From IMG/VR virus record IMGVR_UViG_3300029448_000379, positions 1 through 25,808 of that record: a stretch of 25,808 nt of DNA. One strand, 5' to 3'. A program made the translations under genes and the position numbers. Shown piece after piece: positions 2,951 to 18,125 of the stretch (positions within the stretch are counted from its first letter, which is position 1; every line of letters begins with the position of its first letter). The stretch is from a virus. The notes under the pieces are model-generated. The model was not told the origin of the DNA, ran no database searches, and saw nothing but the letters and a program-made list of their open reading frames with translations.

Positions 2951-3090
2951 TGGTAAAACAGACTTTAGTTCAAAAAACAGATTTTGATAAAGTAGTTAAA
3001 AGAACATCAATAGGAAATTCTTCTCGTTCCAAGCCAAAGAATAAACATAAATTAAAGTCATGGAAAAAATATAATAGGCAAGGCAAATGA
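2950..3090 (+). CDS. Small basic protein (46 aa)
   Basis: A 46-residue gene with TAATG coupling at its start (2950) and an ATGA overlap with the next gene at its end (3087/3090). The sequence is strongly basic: after a KTDFDKVVKRTSIGNSSRSK core it ends in K/W/R/Y-rich residues (KLKSWKKYNRQGK). The net charge is highly positive, consistent with nucleic-acid or membrane-surface binding, but no function can be assigned. The exact coupling at both ends and the complete filling of the gap between neighbours are the main evidence that it is real. Confidence 0.75.
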   Translation: MVKQTLVQKTDFDKVVKRTSIGNSSRSKPKNKHKLKSWKKYNRQGK

Positions 3091-3641
3091 TTAAAACAGT
3101 TTGTGCCACATTAGTTTTATTATGTAGTGCTTTTAATTATCAATGGGATTTTAATTATAAAAATAAAGATGAATTTGTTTTAGGTATTACAGAATGTACG
3201 ATTGAGTTTAATTCTAAAATTCCACCACAATCAAGAGTAATAGTAGTTGTTTCTGTTGCACAAGCTATACTTGAATCTAATTGGGGTTTATCAAGATTTG
3301 CTTTAGAGGGTAATAATTTTTATGGAATGATAGAAACTGACAAAACACAGCCTCATATAAAAGCATTAAATAGCAATGTAATGATAAAAAAATATGAAAG
3401 AAAATGTGAAAGTGTTGCTGATTATATTACCTTACTTAATAGAGGTACAGATTTTAAAGAATATAGAGAACTAAGAAATAAACAAACACTATTACAAGAA
3501 ATAAATTTAGATGAATTAATCAATAGCTTACATACTTTTGCAATAGATAAAAATTATACAAAAAAGATTAGTAAAACAGTTTATTTTCTACTACAAGAAT
3601 ACCCAGAAATTTTTAAAATAGAAAGTATGCAAGATGTCTGA
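3087..3641 (+). CDS. Bax/FlgJ-like glucosaminidase, probable lysin
   Basis: 184 residues with an ATGA start overlap. A short hydrophobic N-terminus (MIKTVCATLVLLCSA) suggests export. The core SVAQAILESNWGLSRFALEG at residues 56-75, followed by NNFYGM, is the hallmark of the glucosaminidase superfamily (Bax, FlgJ C-domain), with the expected catalytic glutamate at E63. A second conserved block, ESVADYITLLNRGTDFKEYR, matches the family's SV-Y-LN segment. The predicted activity is cleavage of N-acetylglucosaminyl bonds in peptidoglycan from the periplasmic side. It could act in lysis or as a tail-associated wall hydrolase. It precedes an XhlA-like membrane protein, and a second unrelated lysozyme is encoded at 5187. 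Confidence 0.85.
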   Translation: MIKTVCATLVLLCSAFNYQWDFNYKNKDEFVLGITECTIEFNSKIPPQSRVIVVVSVAQAILESNWGLSRFALEGNNFYGMIETDKTQPHIKALNSNVMIKKYERKCESVADYITLLNRGTDFKEYRELRNKQTLLQEINLDELINSLHTFAIDKNYTKKISKTVYFLLQEYPEIFKIESMQDV

Positions 3642-3837
3642 TTGGGAAAAAGAAAGAGTTATTATTGCTGAATTAAAAACAGATGTTAAATATATTCGTG
3701 AAGATATAAATATTATGCAAAAACAAATTCGTGATCTCAATAGTATATCTAATAAAGGCATGGGTGGATTAAAGGTTGCGTTATTTATAGGAACAATTTT
3801 AGCAGGAATTTATACTTTTGTTAAATTACTAAAATAG
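3634..3837 (+). CDS. XhlA-like small membrane protein, putative holin
   Basis: 67 residues, overlapping the upstream lysin by 8 bases. It has an N-terminal amphipathic or coiled-coil half (ELKTDVKYIREDINIMQKQI), then a glycine hinge and one C-terminal transmembrane segment (VALFIGTILAGIYTFVKLL). This is the layout of XhlA-type holin or haemolysin accessory proteins. Coupling to the glucosaminidase supports a lysis role. A three-TM holin also occurs at 5886, so this may be an auxiliary holin or an antiholin-like protein. Confidence 0.65.
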   Translation: MSDWEKERVIIAELKTDVKYIREDINIMQKQIRDLNSISNKGMGGLKVALFIGTILAGIYTFVKLLK

Positions 3838-3844
3838 CCAATTT

Positions 3845-3871
3845 TTGCAAAACTATAAAAATTAGTATAAT
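3845..3871 (+). promoter_or_regulatory. Candidate sigma70-type promoter for a leaderless mRNA
   Basis: A perfect TATAAT lies at 3866-3871 with a weak -35 TTGCAA at 3845-3850 (15-base spacer; TTTGCA one base earlier gives 16). The usual start site 6-8 bases after the -10 falls on or next to the ATG at 3880. No Shine-Dalgarno sequence precedes that ATG. This is one of the few real gaps in the plus-strand block. Confidence 0.5.
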
Positions 3872-3879
3872 AATCTTCT

Positions 3880-4959
3880 ATGGAAGATAAGGAATGGGAC
3901 GAGCTAAAACTTATCCAAGAAAAACTTCATGAAGCATTAGACAAAGGTTATCCACCTATGGGCAAAGGTGGAATAAATAATCCTACAGGTGCAAGAAAAA
4001 TTGTTGAAGATGTTTTAGATATTCCAAGAACAACACTTCAAAGAAAAATAGATAAAATAGAAAAGTTGGCATTAGGTAGTTCTCATTGGACTATTGAATG
4101 GCATAGATACAAAGATACTAAGCCACAAGTAATTATAGAGGAATATAAAAAACCGATTGTCAGAATAGCTGCTCAATCAACAACATTTTCTGATCCAACA
4201 AAAGTATTTGTAATTCCAGATGCCCATGTTGCACCTGATGAAGATTTAGATAGATTTTATTGGATAGGAAAACAAATAAATGAATACAAACCAGATTATG
4301 TTGTTTGTATAGGCGACTTCTGTTCTTTTGATTCTTGTTCTACCTTTGATAAAAATCATACTGTTAAAGGGCAAAAGAAACCAAACATATTAGCTGATAT
4401 AAATATAACAAAAGAAGCATTAGATTTATTACACAAAGGAATAGGCGATCATGAATGTTATAAGCACTACTGCTTAGGTAATCACGAATTACGATTATAT
4501 AAATATGAAAACGAACACAAAGAAGTTGTTGGTGCTTTTTCACAGCAATACGAAAACTTATGGCGATTAAGAGGTTGGGGAATTAGTGAGTATGGTGATT
4601 TTTATTTTATAAAAGGAGTTGCTTTTGTTCATGTGCCTTTAAATGAAATGGGGCGAGAGATTGGTGGTAAAATGGCAGAAGCAAGTCAAATATCTAATTC
4701 TGCTACCCATGACATAGTATTTGGTCATAGTCATAGAGAGAGATCATGGCGAGCAAGTAAATTAGGTAGAGGTAATTATGTAAAAATTGTAAATGTAGGA
4801 ACAGCAATGAACTTTGGTCATATAGAAAATTATGCTATAAATAGTGCGAATGGGTGGTCTTATGGTGTTTCACAGTTATTGTTATCTGATGGGCATATTC
4901 AAGGACATAATTTTATATCAATGATAGAACTAAAGGAGAAGTATGGACACACCAGATAA
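3880..4959 (+). CDS. Calcineurin-like metallophosphoesterase
   Basis: 359 residues. The phosphoesterase signature is complete and in order: PDAH (D114, H116), CIGDF (D146), GNHE (N201, H202), and GHSH (H283, H285), with a candidate metal histidine near H251. These bind two metals and hydrolyse phosphomonoesters or phosphodiesters. The N-terminal 60 residues (NPTGARKIVEDVLDIPRTTL) read like a small helix-turn-helix segment, suggesting DNA association. The natural substrate is unknown: DNA ends, cyclic nucleotides and RNA are all possible. The start lacks a ribosome site and lies 9 bases after a TATAAT. The end overlaps the next gene by 17 bases. Confidence 0.9.
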   Translation: MEDKEWDELKLIQEKLHEALDKGYPPMGKGGINNPTGARKIVEDVLDIPRTTLQRKIDKIEKLALGSSHWTIEWHRYKDTKPQVIIEEYKKPIVRIAAQSTTFSDPTKVFVIPDAHVAPDEDLDRFYWIGKQINEYKPDYVVCIGDFCSFDSCSTFDKNHTVKGQKKPNILADINITKEALDLLHKGIGDHECYKHYCLGNHELRLYKYENEHKEVVGAFSQQYENLWRLRGWGISEYGDFYFIKGVAFVHVPLNEMGREIGGKMAEASQISNSATHDIVFGHSHRERSWRASKLGRGNYVKIVNVGTAMNFGHIENYAINSANGWSYGVSQLLLSDGHIQGHNFISMIELKEKYGHTR

Positions 4960-5185
4960 ACTTGTAAAAAGAGTAATGGATAAAATGGCTTTACGAGCAA
5001 ATCAAGGATTAATTAAATATGGTAATACTATGGAAGAAACAACAAAAACTAAAATTGAATGGTTAAAAGAAACTCAAGAAGAATTATTAGATGCTGCAGT
5101 TTATTTAGAAAAGTGTATTGAAGATGAATCTGTTCTTACTTGGGAAGCAGAATCAGTTAAGGTAAAAGATATAAAAGGGGATTGA
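4943..5185 (+). CDS. MazG-like nucleotide pyrophosphohydrolase, short
   Basis: 80 residues with a ribosome site AAGGAG just upstream (about 4932-4937). The arrangement RANQGLIKYGNTM, then W-L-K, then EELLDAAVYLEK matches short phage MazG-like or dATP/dGTP diphosphohydrolase-like proteins. The acidic EExxD motif (E46, E47, D50) is a typical metal-binding helix. A full MazG fold needs a second acidic helix, which is not obvious here, so activity may depend on oligomerisation. The likely role is hydrolysis of nucleoside triphosphates or interference with (p)ppGpp-type signalling. Confidence 0.6.
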   Translation: MDTPDKLVKRVMDKMALRANQGLIKYGNTMEETTKTKIEWLKETQEELLDAAVYLEKCIEDESVLTWEAESVKVKDIKGD

Positions 5186-5186
5186 T

Positions 5187-5621
5187 ATGAATATAGAAAA
5201 ATTAAAAGATCATTTAAAAGAAGAAGAGGGTTATCGTGATACTGTCTATAAAGACCATCTTGGATTTGCCACGATTGGCTATGGGCATTTAGTTAAACCT
5301 CACGAACATTTTATAAAAGATAAAAAATATGACAGAAAAGAATTAGAAAAAATATTTGATTATGATGTAGCAATATGTGTTCAAGATGCTAAAAGTTTAT
5401 GTGAGGGATTAGACATACACGAAGATGCTATTGAAATTATTGCTCACATGTGTTTCCAATTAGGAAAGCCAAAAACTGCCAAATTTAAGAAGATGTTTGA
5501 AGCATTAAGAAATAAAGATTATACTACTGCTGGATTTGAAATGGAAGATTCGTTATGGGCGAAAAAACACACACCAGCGAGAGCACACAGACTGAGCGAA
5601 CAGATGAAAAGATTGACATGA
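5187..5621 (+). CDS. T4-type lysozyme (GH24), endolysin
   Basis: 144 residues, AAGGGG ribosome site just upstream. The catalytic triad spacing is exactly that of T4 lysozyme: E14, D23 and T29 in EEGYRDTVYKDHLGFATIGY, followed by GH. The C-terminal WAKKHTPARAHRLSEQM corresponds to the conserved W-x-TP-RA-R segment. It hydrolyses the MurNAc-GlcNAc bond of peptidoglycan. There is no signal peptide, so it should need a holin, which fits the three-TM protein at 5886. It is followed by an ATGA-coupled small gene. Confidence 0.93.
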   Translation: MNIEKLKDHLKEEEGYRDTVYKDHLGFATIGYGHLVKPHEHFIKDKKYDRKELEKIFDYDVAICVQDAKSLCEGLDIHEDAIEIIAHMCFQLGKPKTAKFKKMFEALRNKDYTTAGFEMEDSLWAKKHTPARAHRLSEQMKRLT

Positions 5622-5758
5622 GAACAATGCGAAAAAGATTAACAACTGCTGATGAAATAAAAGAGATACATGATAATAGAAAAAAATATAAAGAAGAAGA
5701 TTTACGAGAAAAAATGCAAAGAATATCAGATCAATTAAGAGAGTGTGGTAAATTATGA
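5618..5758 (+). CDS. Small charged helical protein (46 aa)
   Basis: The ATG at 5618 overlaps the lysozyme stop as ATGA, and the stop at 5756-5758 overlaps the next ATG the same way. An in-frame ATG at 5555 would give 67 residues, but the extra N-terminus would lie wholly inside the lysozyme gene, so 5618 is preferred. The product (RKRLTTADEIKEIHDNRKKY, then EEDLREKMQRISDQLREC) is a highly charged, probably helical peptide. No function was recognised. Confidence 0.65.
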   Translation: MRTMRKRLTTADEIKEIHDNRKKYKEEDLREKMQRISDQLRECGKL

Positions 5759-5886
5759 AAAAGAAAAAAATAGTTAAGAAAAAGAAAAAAGAAAATAAAA
5801 AACCAAAATTAAATGAATTGGGTTATCCTGTTAATGATCCTTATGGTTTGATTGCGGCTTTTTATAAAGCATTTGGTGGTAAGTAA
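5755..5886 (+). CDS. Lysine-rich small protein (43 aa)
   Basis: ATGA coupling at the start and TAATG coupling to the holin at the end. The first 18 residues are almost all lysine. The rest (LNELGYPVNDPYGLIAAFYK, then AFGGK) is conserved-looking and mildly hydrophobic. A basic tail plus short amphipathic segment could bind nucleic acid or membranes. The function is unknown. Confidence 0.65.
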   Translation: MKKKKIVKKKKKENKKPKLNELGYPVNDPYGLIAAFYKAFGGK

Positions 5887-6302
5887 TGGTGCTAGGTAAA
5901 ATATTTGGTGGTGATACAATTAAAACAATTGGTAATGTTGTTGATGATATGCACTTTTCAGGAGAGGAAAAAGAAAAGTTAAAATTACAATTTGAAGAAA
6001 TACAAGCCAAGTTAAAATCTAAACAAATGGATATTAATTTAGCTGATGCTCAAAGTACTGCAGGTGGTTTAAGTGGATTTATGCAAAGGTCATGGCGCCC
6101 ACTTATCGGAATGTCTTGTGCCTTAGCAATTTTTTGGGAGTTTGTTTTATCAAAATTTATTTTATTTATTTGTGGTTTATTTCAATATGAAGTGGTAAAC
6201 ATACCGCAACTTGATATGGGGACTTTAATGCCTCTTGTCATGTCGCTTCTTGGTATGGGAGCATTGAGAACTTTTGAAAAAACAAAAGGAGTCACGAAAT
6301 GA
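5886..6302 (+). CDS. Three-TM holin (GTA/3TMs family)
   Basis: 138 residues. The first 55 residues are charged and helical (SGEEKEKLKLQFEEIQAKLK). They are followed by DAQSTAGGLSGFMQRSWRPL, the signature of the three-transmembrane holin family first described in gene-transfer agents. Hydrophobic segments follow: IGMSCALAIFWEFVL, FILFICGLF, and MPLVMSLLGMGAL, the last just before the conserved R-T-F-E-K end. It should permeabilise the inner membrane to release the GH24 lysozyme encoded 260 bases upstream. It starts by TAATG coupling and ends by ATGA coupling. Confidence 0.9.
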   Translation: MVLGKIFGGDTIKTIGNVVDDMHFSGEEKEKLKLQFEEIQAKLKSKQMDINLADAQSTAGGLSGFMQRSWRPLIGMSCALAIFWEFVLSKFILFICGLFQYEVVNIPQLDMGTLMPLVMSLLGMGALRTFEKTKGVTK

Positions 6303-9598: not shown

Positions 9599-9756
9599 AT
9601 TAACTCCCTCATTAAATGTTTTCTTTTTTTATTAAACATTACATACATTTCTAGATTTTTTTCTTTTCTGCACTGACATAAGAAACCTACGATTATTTCG
9701 TAGGCTTCTATGTTGTGATCAGCATAAGATGTTTGTCTAGTAAGTAGTTTAATCAT
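9595..9756 (-). CDS. Small protein between DUF932 and lipoprotein genes (53 aa)
   Basis: 53 residues with ATGA overlaps at both ends: its ATG (9756) overlaps the DUF932 stop, and its TGA (9595-9597) overlaps the lipoprotein ATG. The product has a TSYADHNIEAYEIIVGFLCQ segment and a C-C pair (CQCRK), then a basic helical tail. No family was recognised. The exact coupling is the main support. Confidence 0.75.
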   Translation of the reverse strand: MIKLLTRQTSYADHNIEAYEIIVGFLCQCRKEKNLEMYVMFNKKRKHLMRELI

Positions 9757-10670
9757 AGTAATTGATTACTTCTGATAGGATCAAAAGCAATATTTTCCCA
9801 TTGTTTAGATCTAAAGAATAATAAAACTTGATTTTTATTACTTTCTTCAATGTTATAAAACTTTGAATCTTCTTTATAATCATATAACTCAGGGTGTGTT
9901 GCCCAATTAGTTAAAGCATTATAAAATGCCCAAACAGTATCATCTAAATTTACTGCTTCTTTTTTATATTGAGCTAACAACCAACCAAGCAATTTTTCTT
10001 TATGGTCAGTATTTTTTTTCTTAGTGGCTTTTCTTTTACAAATAGTTTGCTTTAATGCTAACTCAACATCTTTTACAGATATTTTTGTAGTAGCCATAGT
10101 TTTAAAATAAGGTTCCATTTCAAAAAATTTTTCGGTTGATGAATTAAATATACTCACTAGGTTTTCTACATCAAAACCAACAGTATGACGAAAAGCGAAT
10201 ACTAATTGCCAAATGGCTTGTAGCATTCCATTATCACATTCTAATCGTTTAGGAGTAGAGTCAGAAATATTACAAAGTGATCCGTCATGTGAAGATTTTG
10301 CAGTTTGTGTAAACTGAACTAGATCGCCAACTTTCGGCTCAATAGTTAAATCTTTCATAATAACTTCTCGCTTGAATCTTCTGCCACCATCAATTAAAAA
10401 GTCTTTGCATATAAAATTACTATTTTTTAACAAACCAGATTTTTCTAATCCTTCAGTTTGTTTTTCAATAATATCATAATATTGCGTAGGCTCATAACGA
10501 TTACCAACGATTGATAAAGGTTGTTCAGTATCAGTGCGTACTAAAACGCTATGATCTGGAACATCAATTCTATCATCTACACTGTTTAGAAATGACATAG
10601 GTTTTAGCTCAACCTTAAAATGTAATTTTTCAGGAATTGCTAAATTATTTTCTTGAGTATGTATTAACAT
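9753..10670 (-). CDS. DUF932 (phage/plasmid-like) protein
   Basis: 305 residues, perfect AAAGGAGG site. The N-terminal VLVRTDTEQPLSIVGNRYEP, followed by TQYYDIIE, is the DUF932 hallmark, supported by VGDLVQFTQTAKSSHDGS, CDNGMLQAIW and FRHTVGFDVENL. This family is widespread on phages and plasmids. Its function is unproven, though association with replication or DNA transfer is often suggested. The 5' untranslated region contains a hammerhead ribozyme (10687-10742) ending just before the ribosome site, so the mRNA should be processed to a short leader. Confidence 0.85.
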   Translation of the reverse strand: MLIHTQENNLAIPEKLHFKVELKPMSFLNSVDDRIDVPDHSVLVRTDTEQPLSIVGNRYEPTQYYDIIEKQTEGLEKSGLLKNSNFICKDFLIDGGRRFKREVIMKDLTIEPKVGDLVQFTQTAKSSHDGSLCNISDSTPKRLECDNGMLQAIWQLVFAFRHTVGFDVENLVSIFNSSTEKFFEMEPYFKTMATTKISVKDVELALKQTICKRKATKKKNTDHKEKLLGWLLAQYKKEAVNLDDTVWAFYNALTNWATHPELYDYKEDSKFYNIEESNKNQVLLFFRSKQWENIAFDPIRSNQLL

Positions 10671-10686
10671 AATACCTCCTTTTAAT

Positions 10687-10742
10687 TTTCTGTTTCGTTC
10701 TTAATGAACTCATCAGGCATACAAAAAAGTATACGACAGAAA
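10687..10742 (-). ncRNA. Type III hammerhead ribozyme 1
   Basis: Read on the minus strand. Stem III is UUUCUGU (10742-10736) with ACAGAAA (10693-10687), 7 bp. The cleavage triplet is GUC, ending at 10735. Stem I is GUAUAC (10734-10729) with GUAUGC (10722-10717), 6 bp with one G-U, loop of six U. The core CUGAUGA is at 10716-10710. Stem II is GUUC/GAAC (10709-10706, 10700-10697), loop AUUAA. GAAA is at 10696-10693. Cleavage is predicted between 10735 and 10734. Every conserved hammerhead core base is present. It sits immediately upstream of the ribosome site of the DUF932 gene. Confidence 0.95.
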
Positions 10743-10762
10743 GGGGGATAATTAAATCCCCC
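10743..10762 (-). terminator. Strong hairpin directly 5' of hammerhead 1
   Basis: GGGGGAT (10743-10749) pairs with ATCCCCC (10756-10762), loop of six A/T bases. In the minus transcript it is followed by UUUCUGUC, which is also the 5' strand of hammerhead stem III. It may act as a partial terminator. After ribozyme cleavage it would cap the 3' end of the upstream RNA. Confidence 0.7.
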
Positions 10763-10769
10763 CCTATAT

Positions 10770-10841
10770 TTAAAGCCAATGTGGTAATGCTAACATTAAA
10801 GTGCTAGCAAATAATAATAAAATAAACCAATGAGTAGGCAT
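10770..10841 (-). CDS. Single-TM micro-protein (23 aa)
   Basis: A 23-residue frame preceded by AAGGAGG, 5 bases before the ATG. Nearly the whole product is one transmembrane helix (WFILLLFASTLMLALPHWL), after a short polar start. Such peptides in phages can be inhibitors or modulators of membrane proteins. No specific function is known. The strong ribosome site is the main evidence. Confidence 0.65.
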   Translation of the reverse strand: MPTHWFILLLFASTLMLALPHWL

Positions 10842-10877
10842 AAACCCTCCTTATAGTTAGTGATCTGTCATCTTCAG

Positions 10878-10920
10878 TACAGGTAGATCAATTCCTGTAG
10901 AGAGGGATATAAATCCCTCT
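10878..10920 (-). other. Tandem hairpins between two small genes
   Basis: AGAGGGAT (10901-10908) pairs perfectly with ATCCCTCT (10913-10920). Next to it TACAGG (10878-10883) pairs with CCTGTA (10894-10899). They lie between the 41-residue and 23-residue genes. There is no U-tract in the minus direction, so RNA stabilisation is more likely than termination. Confidence 0.6.
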
Positions 10921-10925
10921 TTCGA

Positions 10926-11051
10926 CTATTTTTTATTTGGATAAATTTTATAAAAAAAAATATCGCCATTAATCCAATAACTAGTACCCCAAACAAAATA
11001 ATTAATATCATTTTTATCTAAGGTGCATGGACTTGGTAATAAATGTCCCAT
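10926..11051 (-). CDS. Small protein (41 aa)
   Basis: The ATG at 11051 overlaps the preceding stop (TAATG) and has AAGGAGG before it. The product is rich in aromatics (DINYFVWGTSYWINGDIFFY). It has no signal peptide and no recognised family. A tandem hairpin follows. Confidence 0.7.
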   Translation of the reverse strand: MGHLLPSPCTLDKNDINYFVWGTSYWINGDIFFYKIYPNKK

Positions 11052-11386
11052 TATTCCTCCTTGTTTTTAAGTTCTGGTAATTCAACTTGTGAAACATGAA
11101 AAACTGAAAATCTTTTAAATTGTGGTTTCTTAGGATTTTCGTTATTAAGAAATCGCACAAGACTCGCAACAGTTTTAGTTTCTTTCGGTACAATACCACC
11201 GATAGAAAAAGTTTGATTAAAAGTGATAAACTCCCCATCATAACCAGTCTTTTTTAGAATATCTAAATTTTTGCCTGTGTAAGCAATTTTAGTAACATAG
11301 TTAATATACTTTTTTTCTTTTGGTACTGTAAATTCAACACCATTTTTCATAAAAGTATTTTCGTTTATTTGGATTATATTTGACAT
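11051..11386 (-). CDS. Hypothetical early protein (111 aa)
   Basis: 111 residues, ribosome site AAGGAGAG. The sequence has several beta-like strands (NGVEFTVPKEKKYINYVTKI, FITFNQTFSIGGIVPKETKT) and ends in an acidic KNKEE tail. No family was recognised. Its leader carries hammerhead ribozyme 2, ending about 20 bases before the start codon. Confidence 0.7.
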   Translation of the reverse strand: MSNIIQINENTFMKNGVEFTVPKEKKYINYVTKIAYTGKNLDILKKTGYDGEFITFNQTFSIGGIVPKETKTVASLVRFLNNENPKKPQFKRFSVFHVSQVELPELKNKEE

Positions 11387-11407
11387 AGTCTCTCCTTATT
11401 GTAATTT

Positions 11408-11457
11408 CTGTTTCGGTTATACAAAACCTCATCAGCATAACTATTTGTTATGGACAG
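11408..11457 (-). ncRNA. Type III hammerhead ribozyme 2
   Basis: Minus strand. Stem III is CUGU (11457-11454) with ACAG (11411-11408), 4 bp. The GUC triplet ends at 11453. Stem I is CAUAAC (11452-11447) with GUUAUG (11441-11436), loop AAAUA. Core CUGAUGA is at 11435-11429. Stem II is GGUU/AACC (11428-11425, 11418-11415), loop UUGUAU. GAAA is at 11414-11411. Cleavage is predicted between 11453 and 11452. Stem I is perfect. Stem III is short, and a stable hairpin (11459-11484) abuts it. Same orientation and layout as ribozyme 1. Confidence 0.9.
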
Positions 11458-11458
11458 T

Positions 11459-11484
11459 GCTAGTTTCTGTTGCCAAGTACTAGC
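11459..11484 (-). other. Hairpin directly 5' of hammerhead 2
   Basis: GCTAGT (11459-11464) pairs with ACTAGC (11479-11484), 14-base loop. It is one base away from the ribozyme stem III, matching the hairpin that precedes ribozyme 1. It could stack on stem III or protect the 3' end after cleavage. Confidence 0.65.
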
Positions 11485-11498
11485 GAACTCCGATACAA

Positions 11499-11720
11499 TC
11501 AATTATTGAGTAATAAACTTCTATAAGAAGCACCAACAAAGCTACTTCCATAAGAAATTTGTTTACCAGCAAGAATTTTTAATTCTGATTTTAATTCTTT
11601 AATATATTCAGAATTATCAATAACTATATCTAAACTATTTTTTTTAGATAAACTTTCTTGCAACTCAATGAAATTGACCAAATTATCAATTTTTAATTTT
11701 AATTGTTTTTGATCTATCAT
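11499..11720 (-). CDS. Hypothetical protein, first gene of the minus-strand block (73 aa)
   Basis: The ATG at 11720 gives 73 residues. An in-frame TTG at 11735 would lie inside hammerhead 3 and is rejected. The N-terminal half is helical and charged (MIDQKQLKLKIDNLVNFIEL), with a second helix (YIKELKSELKILAGKQ) and a S/Y/G-rich end. No ribosome site precedes it: hammerhead ribozyme 3 ends at 11722, one base before the ATG. It is the first gene after the divergent region. No family was recognised. Confidence 0.65.
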   Translation of the reverse strand: MIDQKQLKLKIDNLVNFIELQESLSKKNSLDIVIDNSEYIKELKSELKILAGKQISYGSSFVGASYRSLLLNN

Positions 11721-11721
11721 A

Positions 11722-11773
11722 TTTGTTTCGACCAAGTAGGTCTCATCAGTTTAGCTTAATTGCTAAAAACAAA
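11722..11773 (-). ncRNA. Type III hammerhead ribozyme 3
   Basis: Minus strand. Stem III is UUUGU (11773-11769) with ACAAA (11726-11722), 5 bp. The triplet is GUU, ending at 11768. Stem I is UUUAGC (11767-11762) with GCUAAA (11755-11750), loop AAUUAA. Core CUGAUGA is at 11749-11743. Stem II is GACC/GGUC (11742-11739, 11733-11730), loop UACUU. GAAA is at 11729-11726. Cleavage is predicted between 11768 and 11767. GUU is a permitted but less usual triplet than GUC, so activity may be lower than for ribozymes 1 and 2. Confidence 0.87.
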
Positions 11774-12119
11774 AGGAGGAGGATTTTTCGCATAAACTTA
11801 TTCCTAATTAAAAATGATGATAAGCCAATCAATTTAGTCTATGACCAATGCCCTAACGCAAAGGAGAATGTTTTTTTTAAATATGAAAACTCTTATCAGT
11901 ACCGAATGAAAGTACTACGAACGATAAAGAGAACAAAAACAATCGGACACATTCGTATCTCTATTCGCCACTGTTAATGAAAACTGACATTGAATAGAAA
12001 ATCTTATTAACATACTAAAAATAAAAGTTGCCCAAAGGTAGCTGAAAGAACTAGAATTTGCTAATAAACTAGAAACAATATTCCCCTGCAATGGATTTTT
12101 AGATTTTTTTGTTAATATG

Positions 12120-16910: not shown

Positions 16911-18125
16911 ATGGGATTAACTTTACCACAAACAGAGGTAATTCAAAGTAAATCTAGATTTAGAATACTTGTCTCTGGTCGCAGATTTGGAAAGACATTT
17001 GTTGCTATTAATGAATTAGCAAGATTTGCTAGGTGGCCAAATACTAAAGTTTGGTATGTTGCACCTACTTATCGTCAAGCAAAAAGTATATGTTGGGTGG
17101 CTTTAAAAGAAAGACTAGATCAACATAATTGGATTAAAGAAATCAATAATAGTGATTTAACTGTAATATTAAGAAATAATTCTACTATATCATTACGAGG
17201 TGCAGATAATGAACAGTCATTAAGAGGAGTTGGATTAAATTTTTTGGTTATGGATGAATTTGCAGATATACACCCACATGCTTGGTACGAGGTTTTAAGA
17301 CCTACACTTTCAGATACAAAAGGACATGCTTTATTTTGTGGCACACCAAAGGGTTTTGGTAATTGGGCTTATGATATGTATGTAAAAGGACAGGGAGATA
17401 AGGATTGGGAAAGTTTTAAATATACTACACTAGAAGGCGAGCAAGTTCCTCAAGAAGAAATAGAACAGGCTTCATCTGACCTTGATGAAAGAACATTCCA
17501 ACAAGAATATATGGCTAGTTTCGTAAATTATTCTGGTATGATTTATTATAACTTTGATAGAAAATTACATTTAAGAGAAAATTATAATCAACATTTAAGT
17601 ATTATTCATATTGGTTTAGATTTTAATGTGGACCCTATGGCAGGTGTCGTTTGTGTAATAGAAAATGATAGAATTATTGTTATAGATGAGATACAAATAT
17701 GGAGTAGTAATACTAATGAAATGTGTGATGAAATTAAAAGAAGATATAATTGTAAAATTAAAATTTACCCAGATCCAAGTGCCAAACAAAGAAAAACTTC
17801 TGCTGGTGGTATGACAGATATAGCAATTTTAAAAAATGCTGGCTTTGAAGTTTTTGCTCGTAACTCAGCTCCCTTTGTTCGTGATAGAATTAATGCAGTA
17901 AATGCAAAATTAAAAAATGCGAAAGGTATTAGTTCGTTGTCTATTGTTAATTCTTGTAAAAATGTGATAAAAAGCATAGAAAGACAGATATACAAAGAGG
18001 GCACTCATGTACCAGATAAAGATAGTGGTTATGACCATTTCAACGATGCTTTAGGTTATATGATTGAATATAATTTTCCTTTGCGTAGAGATTTTAAACC
18101 AAGCAGACCTAAAAGGTGGAGTTGA
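16911..18125 (+). CDS. terL: Large terminase subunit (TerL)
   Basis: 404 residues. Walker A-like VSGRRFGKT at 21-29, Walker B LVMDE with D115/E116, and the coupling motif FCGTPKG at about 142-148 define the ATPase. The RNase-H-like nuclease shows IGLDFNVDP (D237), IKIYPDPSA (D288) and YDHFNDALGYM (D375, D379). It cuts and translocates DNA into the prohead. No clear ribosome site, so it may depend on coupling or on a leaderless start. Confidence 0.95.
   Translation: MGLTLPQTEVIQSKSRFRILVSGRRFGKTFVAINELARFARWPNTKVWYVAPTYRQAKSICWVALKERLDQHNWIKEINNSDLTVILRNNSTISLRGADNEQSLRGVGLNFLVMDEFADIHPHAWYEVLRPTLSDTKGHALFCGTPKGFGNWAYDMYVKGQGDKDWESFKYTTLEGEQVPQEEIEQASSDLDERTFQQEYMASFVNYSGMIYYNFDRKLHLRENYNQHLSIIHIGLDFNVDPMAGVVCVIENDRIIVIDEIQIWSSNTNEMCDEIKRRYNCKIKIYPDPSAKQRKTSAGGMTDIAILKNAGFEVFARNSAPFVRDRINAVNAKLKNAKGISSLSIVNSCKNVIKSIERQIYKEGTHVPDKDSGYDHFNDALGYMIEYNFPLRRDFKPSRPKRWS

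Follow-up and report, generated by a model that had tools for sequence, protein, structure and literature searches.

Clusters of hammerhead ribozymes around prophage genes were described by Perreault et al. (2011; PMC3088659), who proposed that long transcripts are divided by them into mRNAs of operon or gene length; cleavage of the clustered prophage elements, including a triple array around ardA in Agrobacterium, was shown both in vitro and in E. coli, and type II forms were described there, as were pseudoknots in which loop I pairs with bases following helix II. The HDV-like theta ribozymes of gut phages (PMC10879173) likewise self-cleave at defined places in the transcript, but they belong to another ribozyme class and are tied to tRNA genes. 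The locus analyzed here resembles the prophage clusters in its serial, same-strand hammerheads between phage genes; it differs from them in being mostly type III, with one probable type II, in belonging to marine phage contigs, and in having an extra hairpin 5' of helix III, which in one case is the terminal hairpin of a tmRNA. The main text of PMC3088659 mentions neither the word "terminator" nor an abutting hairpin, and a literature search with most subscription papers outside its coverage returned no report of such a hairpin or of hammerheads in pelagiphages. Within the literature searched, the rule that an upstream hairpin accompanies type III as opposed to type I hammerheads seems to be new; the idea of segmentation itself dates from 2011.

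The window, that is, the whole stretch of DNA analyzed (IMG/VR record IMGVR_UViG_3300029448_000379, 25,808 nucleotides), is a 25.8-kb virus record and probably a fragment. Its capsid protein shares 66-72% identity with the capsid proteins of Pelagibacter phages HTVC026P, HTVC112P, HTVC202P, and HTVC111P, and the source is a marine phage related to phages of SAR11 bacteria. From 11.8 kb to 9.7 kb, the minus strand carries ORFs of 73 aa (11499..11720, no function assigned), 111 aa (11051..11386), 41 aa (10926..11051), and 23 aa (10770..10841, a hydrophobic peptide conserved in contig L008), followed by the DUF932 gene (9753..10670, 305 aa; PF06067 E 3.8e-17, phrog_1221). The 41-aa ORF overlaps the stop of the 111-aa ORF and is translationally coupled to it, with no ribozyme between the two; every gene start of this stretch without such coupling has a hammerhead, if the probable element C is included. 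The 111-aa ORF, for which a Pfam search gave no match, has a weak anti-restriction PHROG match (phrog_7245, E 3.4e-4), and the Agrobacterium triple array of 2011 likewise flanks an anti-restriction gene, ardA. Promoter-like matches for the leftward transcript are at chance level and lend no support to the label "early" given to it in an earlier note on this DNA. A match to the rpsL leader RF01774 in the window (E 3.9) was rejected as chance.

Three type III hammerheads lie on the minus strand where the earlier note had placed them: A (11722..11773) in the leader of the 73-aa ORF, B (11408..11457) before the 111-aa ORF, and D (10687..10742) before the DUF932 gene, whose label is borne out by the Pfam match. 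In each, the core CUGANGA, the GAAA, and the NUH triplet (GUU in A, GUC in B and D) are complete, and three helices are formed with helix III open, as in the type III permutation of Rfam RF00008, with which they share core and helices; helix I has 6 bp and helix II 4 bp throughout, and helix III has 7 bp in D, 4 bp in B, and 5 bp in A. The cuts predicted at 11768/11767, 11453/11452, and 10735/10734 would give 5'-OH positions identical to the 5' ends claimed before (11767, 11452, and 10734). A script requiring the core, an NUH site, and three helices returned exactly A, B, and D from the two strands of the window and 0 elements in 300 Markov-1 copies of the strand. We trained a covariance model on 36 type III hammerheads, all from phages outside the lineage of the window. 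It gave D 52.0 bits (E 1.2e-14), A 40.6 bits (E 6.2e-11), and B 38.2 bits (E 3.7e-10); the fourth-best match in the window had E 1.4, and nothing besides these three fell below E 1. The simulated strands and the model scores rule out a chance origin. By core, helices, and model score, A, B, and D are type III hammerhead ribozymes, predicted to self-cleave after H17. Hammerhead B, whose lowest-energy fold is not the hammerhead (-9.2 vs -7.4 kcal/mol), is on these folding predictions the weakest of the three. The Rfam search suggested in the earlier note bore it out in part: RF00008 matched D (37 bits, E 9.5e-5), below its gathering score of 48.5, which is a curated threshold and not a structural feature, and did not list A or B. 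Rfam, used with the gathering score or at E 10, is too insensitive for these two of the three type III elements; in other phages, RF00008 gave matches in 37 contigs, with 1 above the cut-off.

The earlier count of three holds for the type III elements and is probably incomplete, since it missed a candidate type II hammerhead, C (10861..10926, minus strand), situated after the 41-aa ORF and before the 23-aa ORF, with a predicted cut at 10900/10899. Its sequence, GUC-GAA-(AGAGGGAU UUAU AUCCCUCU)-C-(UACAGG AAUUGAUCUA CCUGUA)-CUGAAGA-U-GAC-AGAUCA, presents in order GAAA, the helix III hairpin, C17, helix I, CUGAAGA, a 1-nt bulge, a 3-bp helix II, and the pseudoknot. Helices I and III are closed and helix II is open; CUGANGA, GAAA, and UH are all present, and loop I pairs as a pseudoknot (UGAUCU/AGAUCA). 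The lowest-energy fold is the type II structure without the pseudoknot, and a relaxed script finds C-like elements at ~1 per 5 Mb of simulated sequence. A reading of C as a separate H-type pseudoknot was dropped, the upstream GAAA and hairpin making it a type II hammerhead. Helix II (10.1-11.1 pairing) reaches its 3 bp only with one U bulged after A9, so that the activity of C is uncertain; a homologue in the cultured Oceanotoga phage vB_OteS-UFV02 has the same bulge. This homologue (OR420712.1 1031-1092) is a 65-nt stretch, 80% identical, between two genes, and its pseudoknot is changed on both sides in a compensatory manner, to UGACCU/AGGUCA; an Rfam search there returned nothing. Homologues in L023 and L166 have the same layout, with paired bases differing at 5 of the 8 positions of helix III and at 3 of the 6 of helix I. 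On this comparison, C is probably a fourth hammerhead, a pseudoknotted type II that Rfam does not detect.

Covariation in related genomes, to which the earlier note had looked for support, was found: A, C, and D are kept in related phages with compensatory pair changes in their helices, and the core is unchanged apart from a U7 to C substitution in A of L166 and L029. Four other contigs (L021, L024, L023, and L166) have an orthologue of D before the DUF932 gene, with helix I reading GUAUAC/GUAUGC in the window vs GCAAGU/ACUUGC in L023; helix I of A reads UUUAGC/GCUAAA in the window vs UGUUGC/GCAACA in L021, and A is identical in sequence in L023. For B, no orthologue was found, and its support comes from its own fold and model score. 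One covariation table is partly circular, its members having been chosen by pairing; the conclusions rest on the covariance model, flank shuffling, and the orthologue comparison. In L166 (IMGVR 3300006736_000224, 2956-5928, minus strand), five hammerheads, four type III and one type II, occupy one 3-kb leftward operon, with one hammerhead in each gap without coupled translation. One hammerhead of this contig, with the core CUGAAUGA (one extra base), still scores 33.8 bits. No hammerheads were found in 54 more distant contigs at the loci around the neighboring VRR-NUC gene, which indicates that the array belongs to a sub-lineage, and their absence from the loci of most wider relatives indicates that a phage of this kind can do without the elements.

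To characterize phage hammerheads more widely, we scanned a viral collection twice with patterns comprising the core and helix II; 47/49 and 124/129 of the matches completed to a full hammerhead, compared with 2-2.5% when the flanks were shuffled. Same-strand clusters of two to five hammerheads occur in many phage contigs, and an ATG ORF start lies within 60 nt in 64 of the 66 type III copies of the first set (median 22 nt downstream), vs 31% for random positions. In the cultured Pelagibacter phage HTVC112P, a type III hammerhead with a pseudoknot (3937-4003, minus strand; 7-bp helix III, pseudoknot UUUAGC/GCUAAA) lies before gp09, its first leftward gene, and a type III hammerhead of Flavobacterium phage elemoA_7-9A (19086-19138, minus strand; E 2e-10) likewise stands before the first leftward gene, gp62. 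The latter phage, also cultured, contains a weak second hammerhead match at 17315-17352, and two other contigs, L127 and L134, mix type I and type III, with six to seven hammerheads per stretch.

The type III copies are distinguished by what precedes them. A perfect hairpin of -8 kcal/mol or better, ending 0-6 nt before helix III, is present in 73/105 type III copies (70%) vs 3/138 type I copies (2%; Fisher p 2e-32); the 105 are non-redundant copies that fall by context similarity into 19 groups, 13 of them with the hairpin, and the separately fetched second set alone gives 28/39 for type III vs 3/122 for type I. When hairpins of -5 kcal/mol or better are considered (n = 79), the gap to helix III is 0 nt in 62. 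Such hairpins accompany 72 of the 88 copies in which an ORF ends no more than 150 nt upstream, vs 4 of the 13 in which none does (p 3.5e-4). The frequency drops to 1% with shuffled flanks and to 3% at the same offset before other genes; a hairpin somewhere in the gap, however, is found in 35% of other gene gaps of the same contigs vs 76% here, so that part of the association may reflect ordinary 3'-end hairpins. The specific part is the abutting position (3% in controls). The distance from ORF stop to ribozyme is mostly 20-48 nt, which leaves a 3' UTR of little more than the hairpin, and TTTT near the junction occurs in only 4 of the 73 hairpin copies, so that the hairpins do not qualify as standard intrinsic terminators. 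Within type I and type II hammerheads, a hairpin of this kind is part of the ribozyme's own fold, as helix III.

The hairpin rule holds in the window. D is preceded at gap 0 by a 20-nt hairpin, GGGGGAUUUAAUUAUCCCCC (10743..10762, minus strand; -12.2 kcal/mol), B by a hairpin at a gap of 1 nt, and in C the helix III hairpin belongs to the ribozyme itself; no hairpin abuts A, which lacks a nearby upstream gene. In relatives, the hairpin before D is always present and its sequence varies (GGGGGA.. in the window, GGGGGG.. in L023 and L166, AGGGCAAA.. in L021 and L024). The hairpin before B (GCUAG..CUAGC, 11459..11484, minus strand; fold -9.1 kcal/mol) is the 3'-terminal hairpin of a permuted, alphaproteobacterial-type tmRNA: complete phage tmRNA genes have the same loop, GUACUUGGCAACAGAAAC, preceded by the same CGGAGU. 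RF01849 matches at 11456-11579 with 26.1 bits (E 3.5e-4), below its gathering score of 50; the coding and acceptor pieces are incomplete, and the terminal part alone matches. The window thus shares the terminal hairpin with permuted tmRNA genes (RF04321, RF01849) and lacks the rest of the tmRNA. It looks as though the hairpin was taken from a phage-type permuted tmRNA and given a new use as a ready-made 3'-end hairpin. The tmRNA terminal-hairpin loop GNACTTGGCAACAGAAAC occurs in at least 119 viral contigs, and in each of the 13 contigs scanned it was located inside a complete permuted tmRNA gene; a search for hammerheads near complete phage tmRNA genes found none. An interpretation of the tmRNA piece as attB was rejected: 30-base and 18-base patterns yielded no matching tmRNA in 84,980 genomes, the three exact 18-mer matches have unrelated flanks, and the window shows no integrase.

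The ends produced by hammerhead cleavage, a 2',3'-cyclic phosphate and a 5'-OH, are substrates for ligases. We consider it probable that the four hammerheads cut the leftward polycistronic RNA in cis into short messages with structured ends and individual stability. One cut would fall before each gene or coupled gene group, so that the downstream mRNA would begin with a 5'-OH and the upstream mRNA would end, immediately after a hairpin, in a 2',3'-cyclic phosphate. After a type III cut, the new 5' end would start with helix I and the 5' strand of helix III would be removed, so that the upstream RNA, if no hairpin came first, would be left with a short single-stranded tail; in copies that follow a gene end, the extra hairpin abutting helix III would form that RNA's 3' end. 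Types I and II would instead leave their own helix III hairpin there. The products would be monocistronic or oligocistronic messages made with neither terminators nor RNases. Cleavage in the cell and the gain in stability are what we infer, the end chemistry being that of hammerheads generally, and the upstream hairpins, to which the earlier note did not refer, are the main evidence that the segments have separate stability; the anatomy of the elements, their conservation and covariation, their position before genes, and the hairpin association are established by the analysis. The covariance scores, the proximity of start codons, the hairpin association, and the five-element operon of L166 support segmentation; the fold of B, the bulge in C, the hairpins of other gaps, and the absence of elements in distant relatives weigh against it. 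The segmentation proposed in the earlier note thus gains from leader position, same-strand clusters, and covariation, with the qualifications that the idea was published in 2011 (PMC3088659) and that there are probably four elements, not three. More tentatively, we suggest that a type III hammerhead and its abutting hairpin form one "cut and cap" device replacing terminators and RNase processing in several phage groups, the permutation being chosen so that each cut leaves the upstream RNA behind a hairpin, extra in type III and built in as helix III in types I and II.

The predominance of a gap of exactly 0 nt could also mean that the hairpin is part of the ribozyme, stacking on a short helix III and aiding its folding, with no relation to the 3' end of the upstream mRNA. 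We regard this as unlikely: the hairpin-bearing copies do not have a shorter helix III (5.08 bp vs 5.00 bp without the hairpin), the occurrence of the hairpin depends on a gene ending upstream, and the open helix of type I is also short, yet has no abutting hairpin on either side.

Somewhat less likely again, in our estimate, is that cleavage serves mainly as a translation switch, in which the strand 5' of the cut (UCCUCCUCC, 11775..11783, minus strand) would pair with the Shine-Dalgarno sequence and cutting would release it. This strand, just upstream of A, is conserved and is complementary to the Shine-Dalgarno sequence in relatives, with pairing predicted in L023 and L021 and UCCUCCU preceding A in five contigs, and predicted Shine-Dalgarno accessibility at A rises on cutting from 0.04 to 0.43 in L023, from 0.25 to 0.77 in L021, and from 0.39 to 0.53 in L166. 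For B, C, and D in the window, however, predicted accessibility is unchanged by cutting; the 73-aa ORF of the window has no clear Shine-Dalgarno sequence, and many phages of the set have none near the ATG. Translational release is a possible second effect at leader element A on these accessibility predictions.

A patchy distribution, together with a base added between core and helix II in element A of L008 and L021, might be expected if mobile ribozyme elements had left decaying relics that no longer have a role; the compensatory changes around an invariant core in orthologues and the fixed position before start codons make this very improbable. Least credible of all is that two successive cuts release gene-length RNAs to be ligated into circles, for although their 5'-OH and cyclic-phosphate ends would suit a ligase, the locus shows no sign of one, and Perreault et al. 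(2011; PMC3088659), who considered the idea, observed no circles.

Under the segmentation model, a specific prediction for both RNA ends follows from the hairpin rule, which does not extend to type I and which depends on a gene lying upstream, and the copies in cultured HTVC112P, elemoA_7-9A, and UFV02 make the rule testable in infection. Together, the hairpin and ribozyme also offer a compact natural module with which a synthetic operon could be cut. In a further contig, L161, a pseudoknotted type III hammerhead at about 5995-6069 (plus strand) has a 9-bp helix III whose 3' strand holds the Shine-Dalgarno sequence GGGAGG, which cutting would free.
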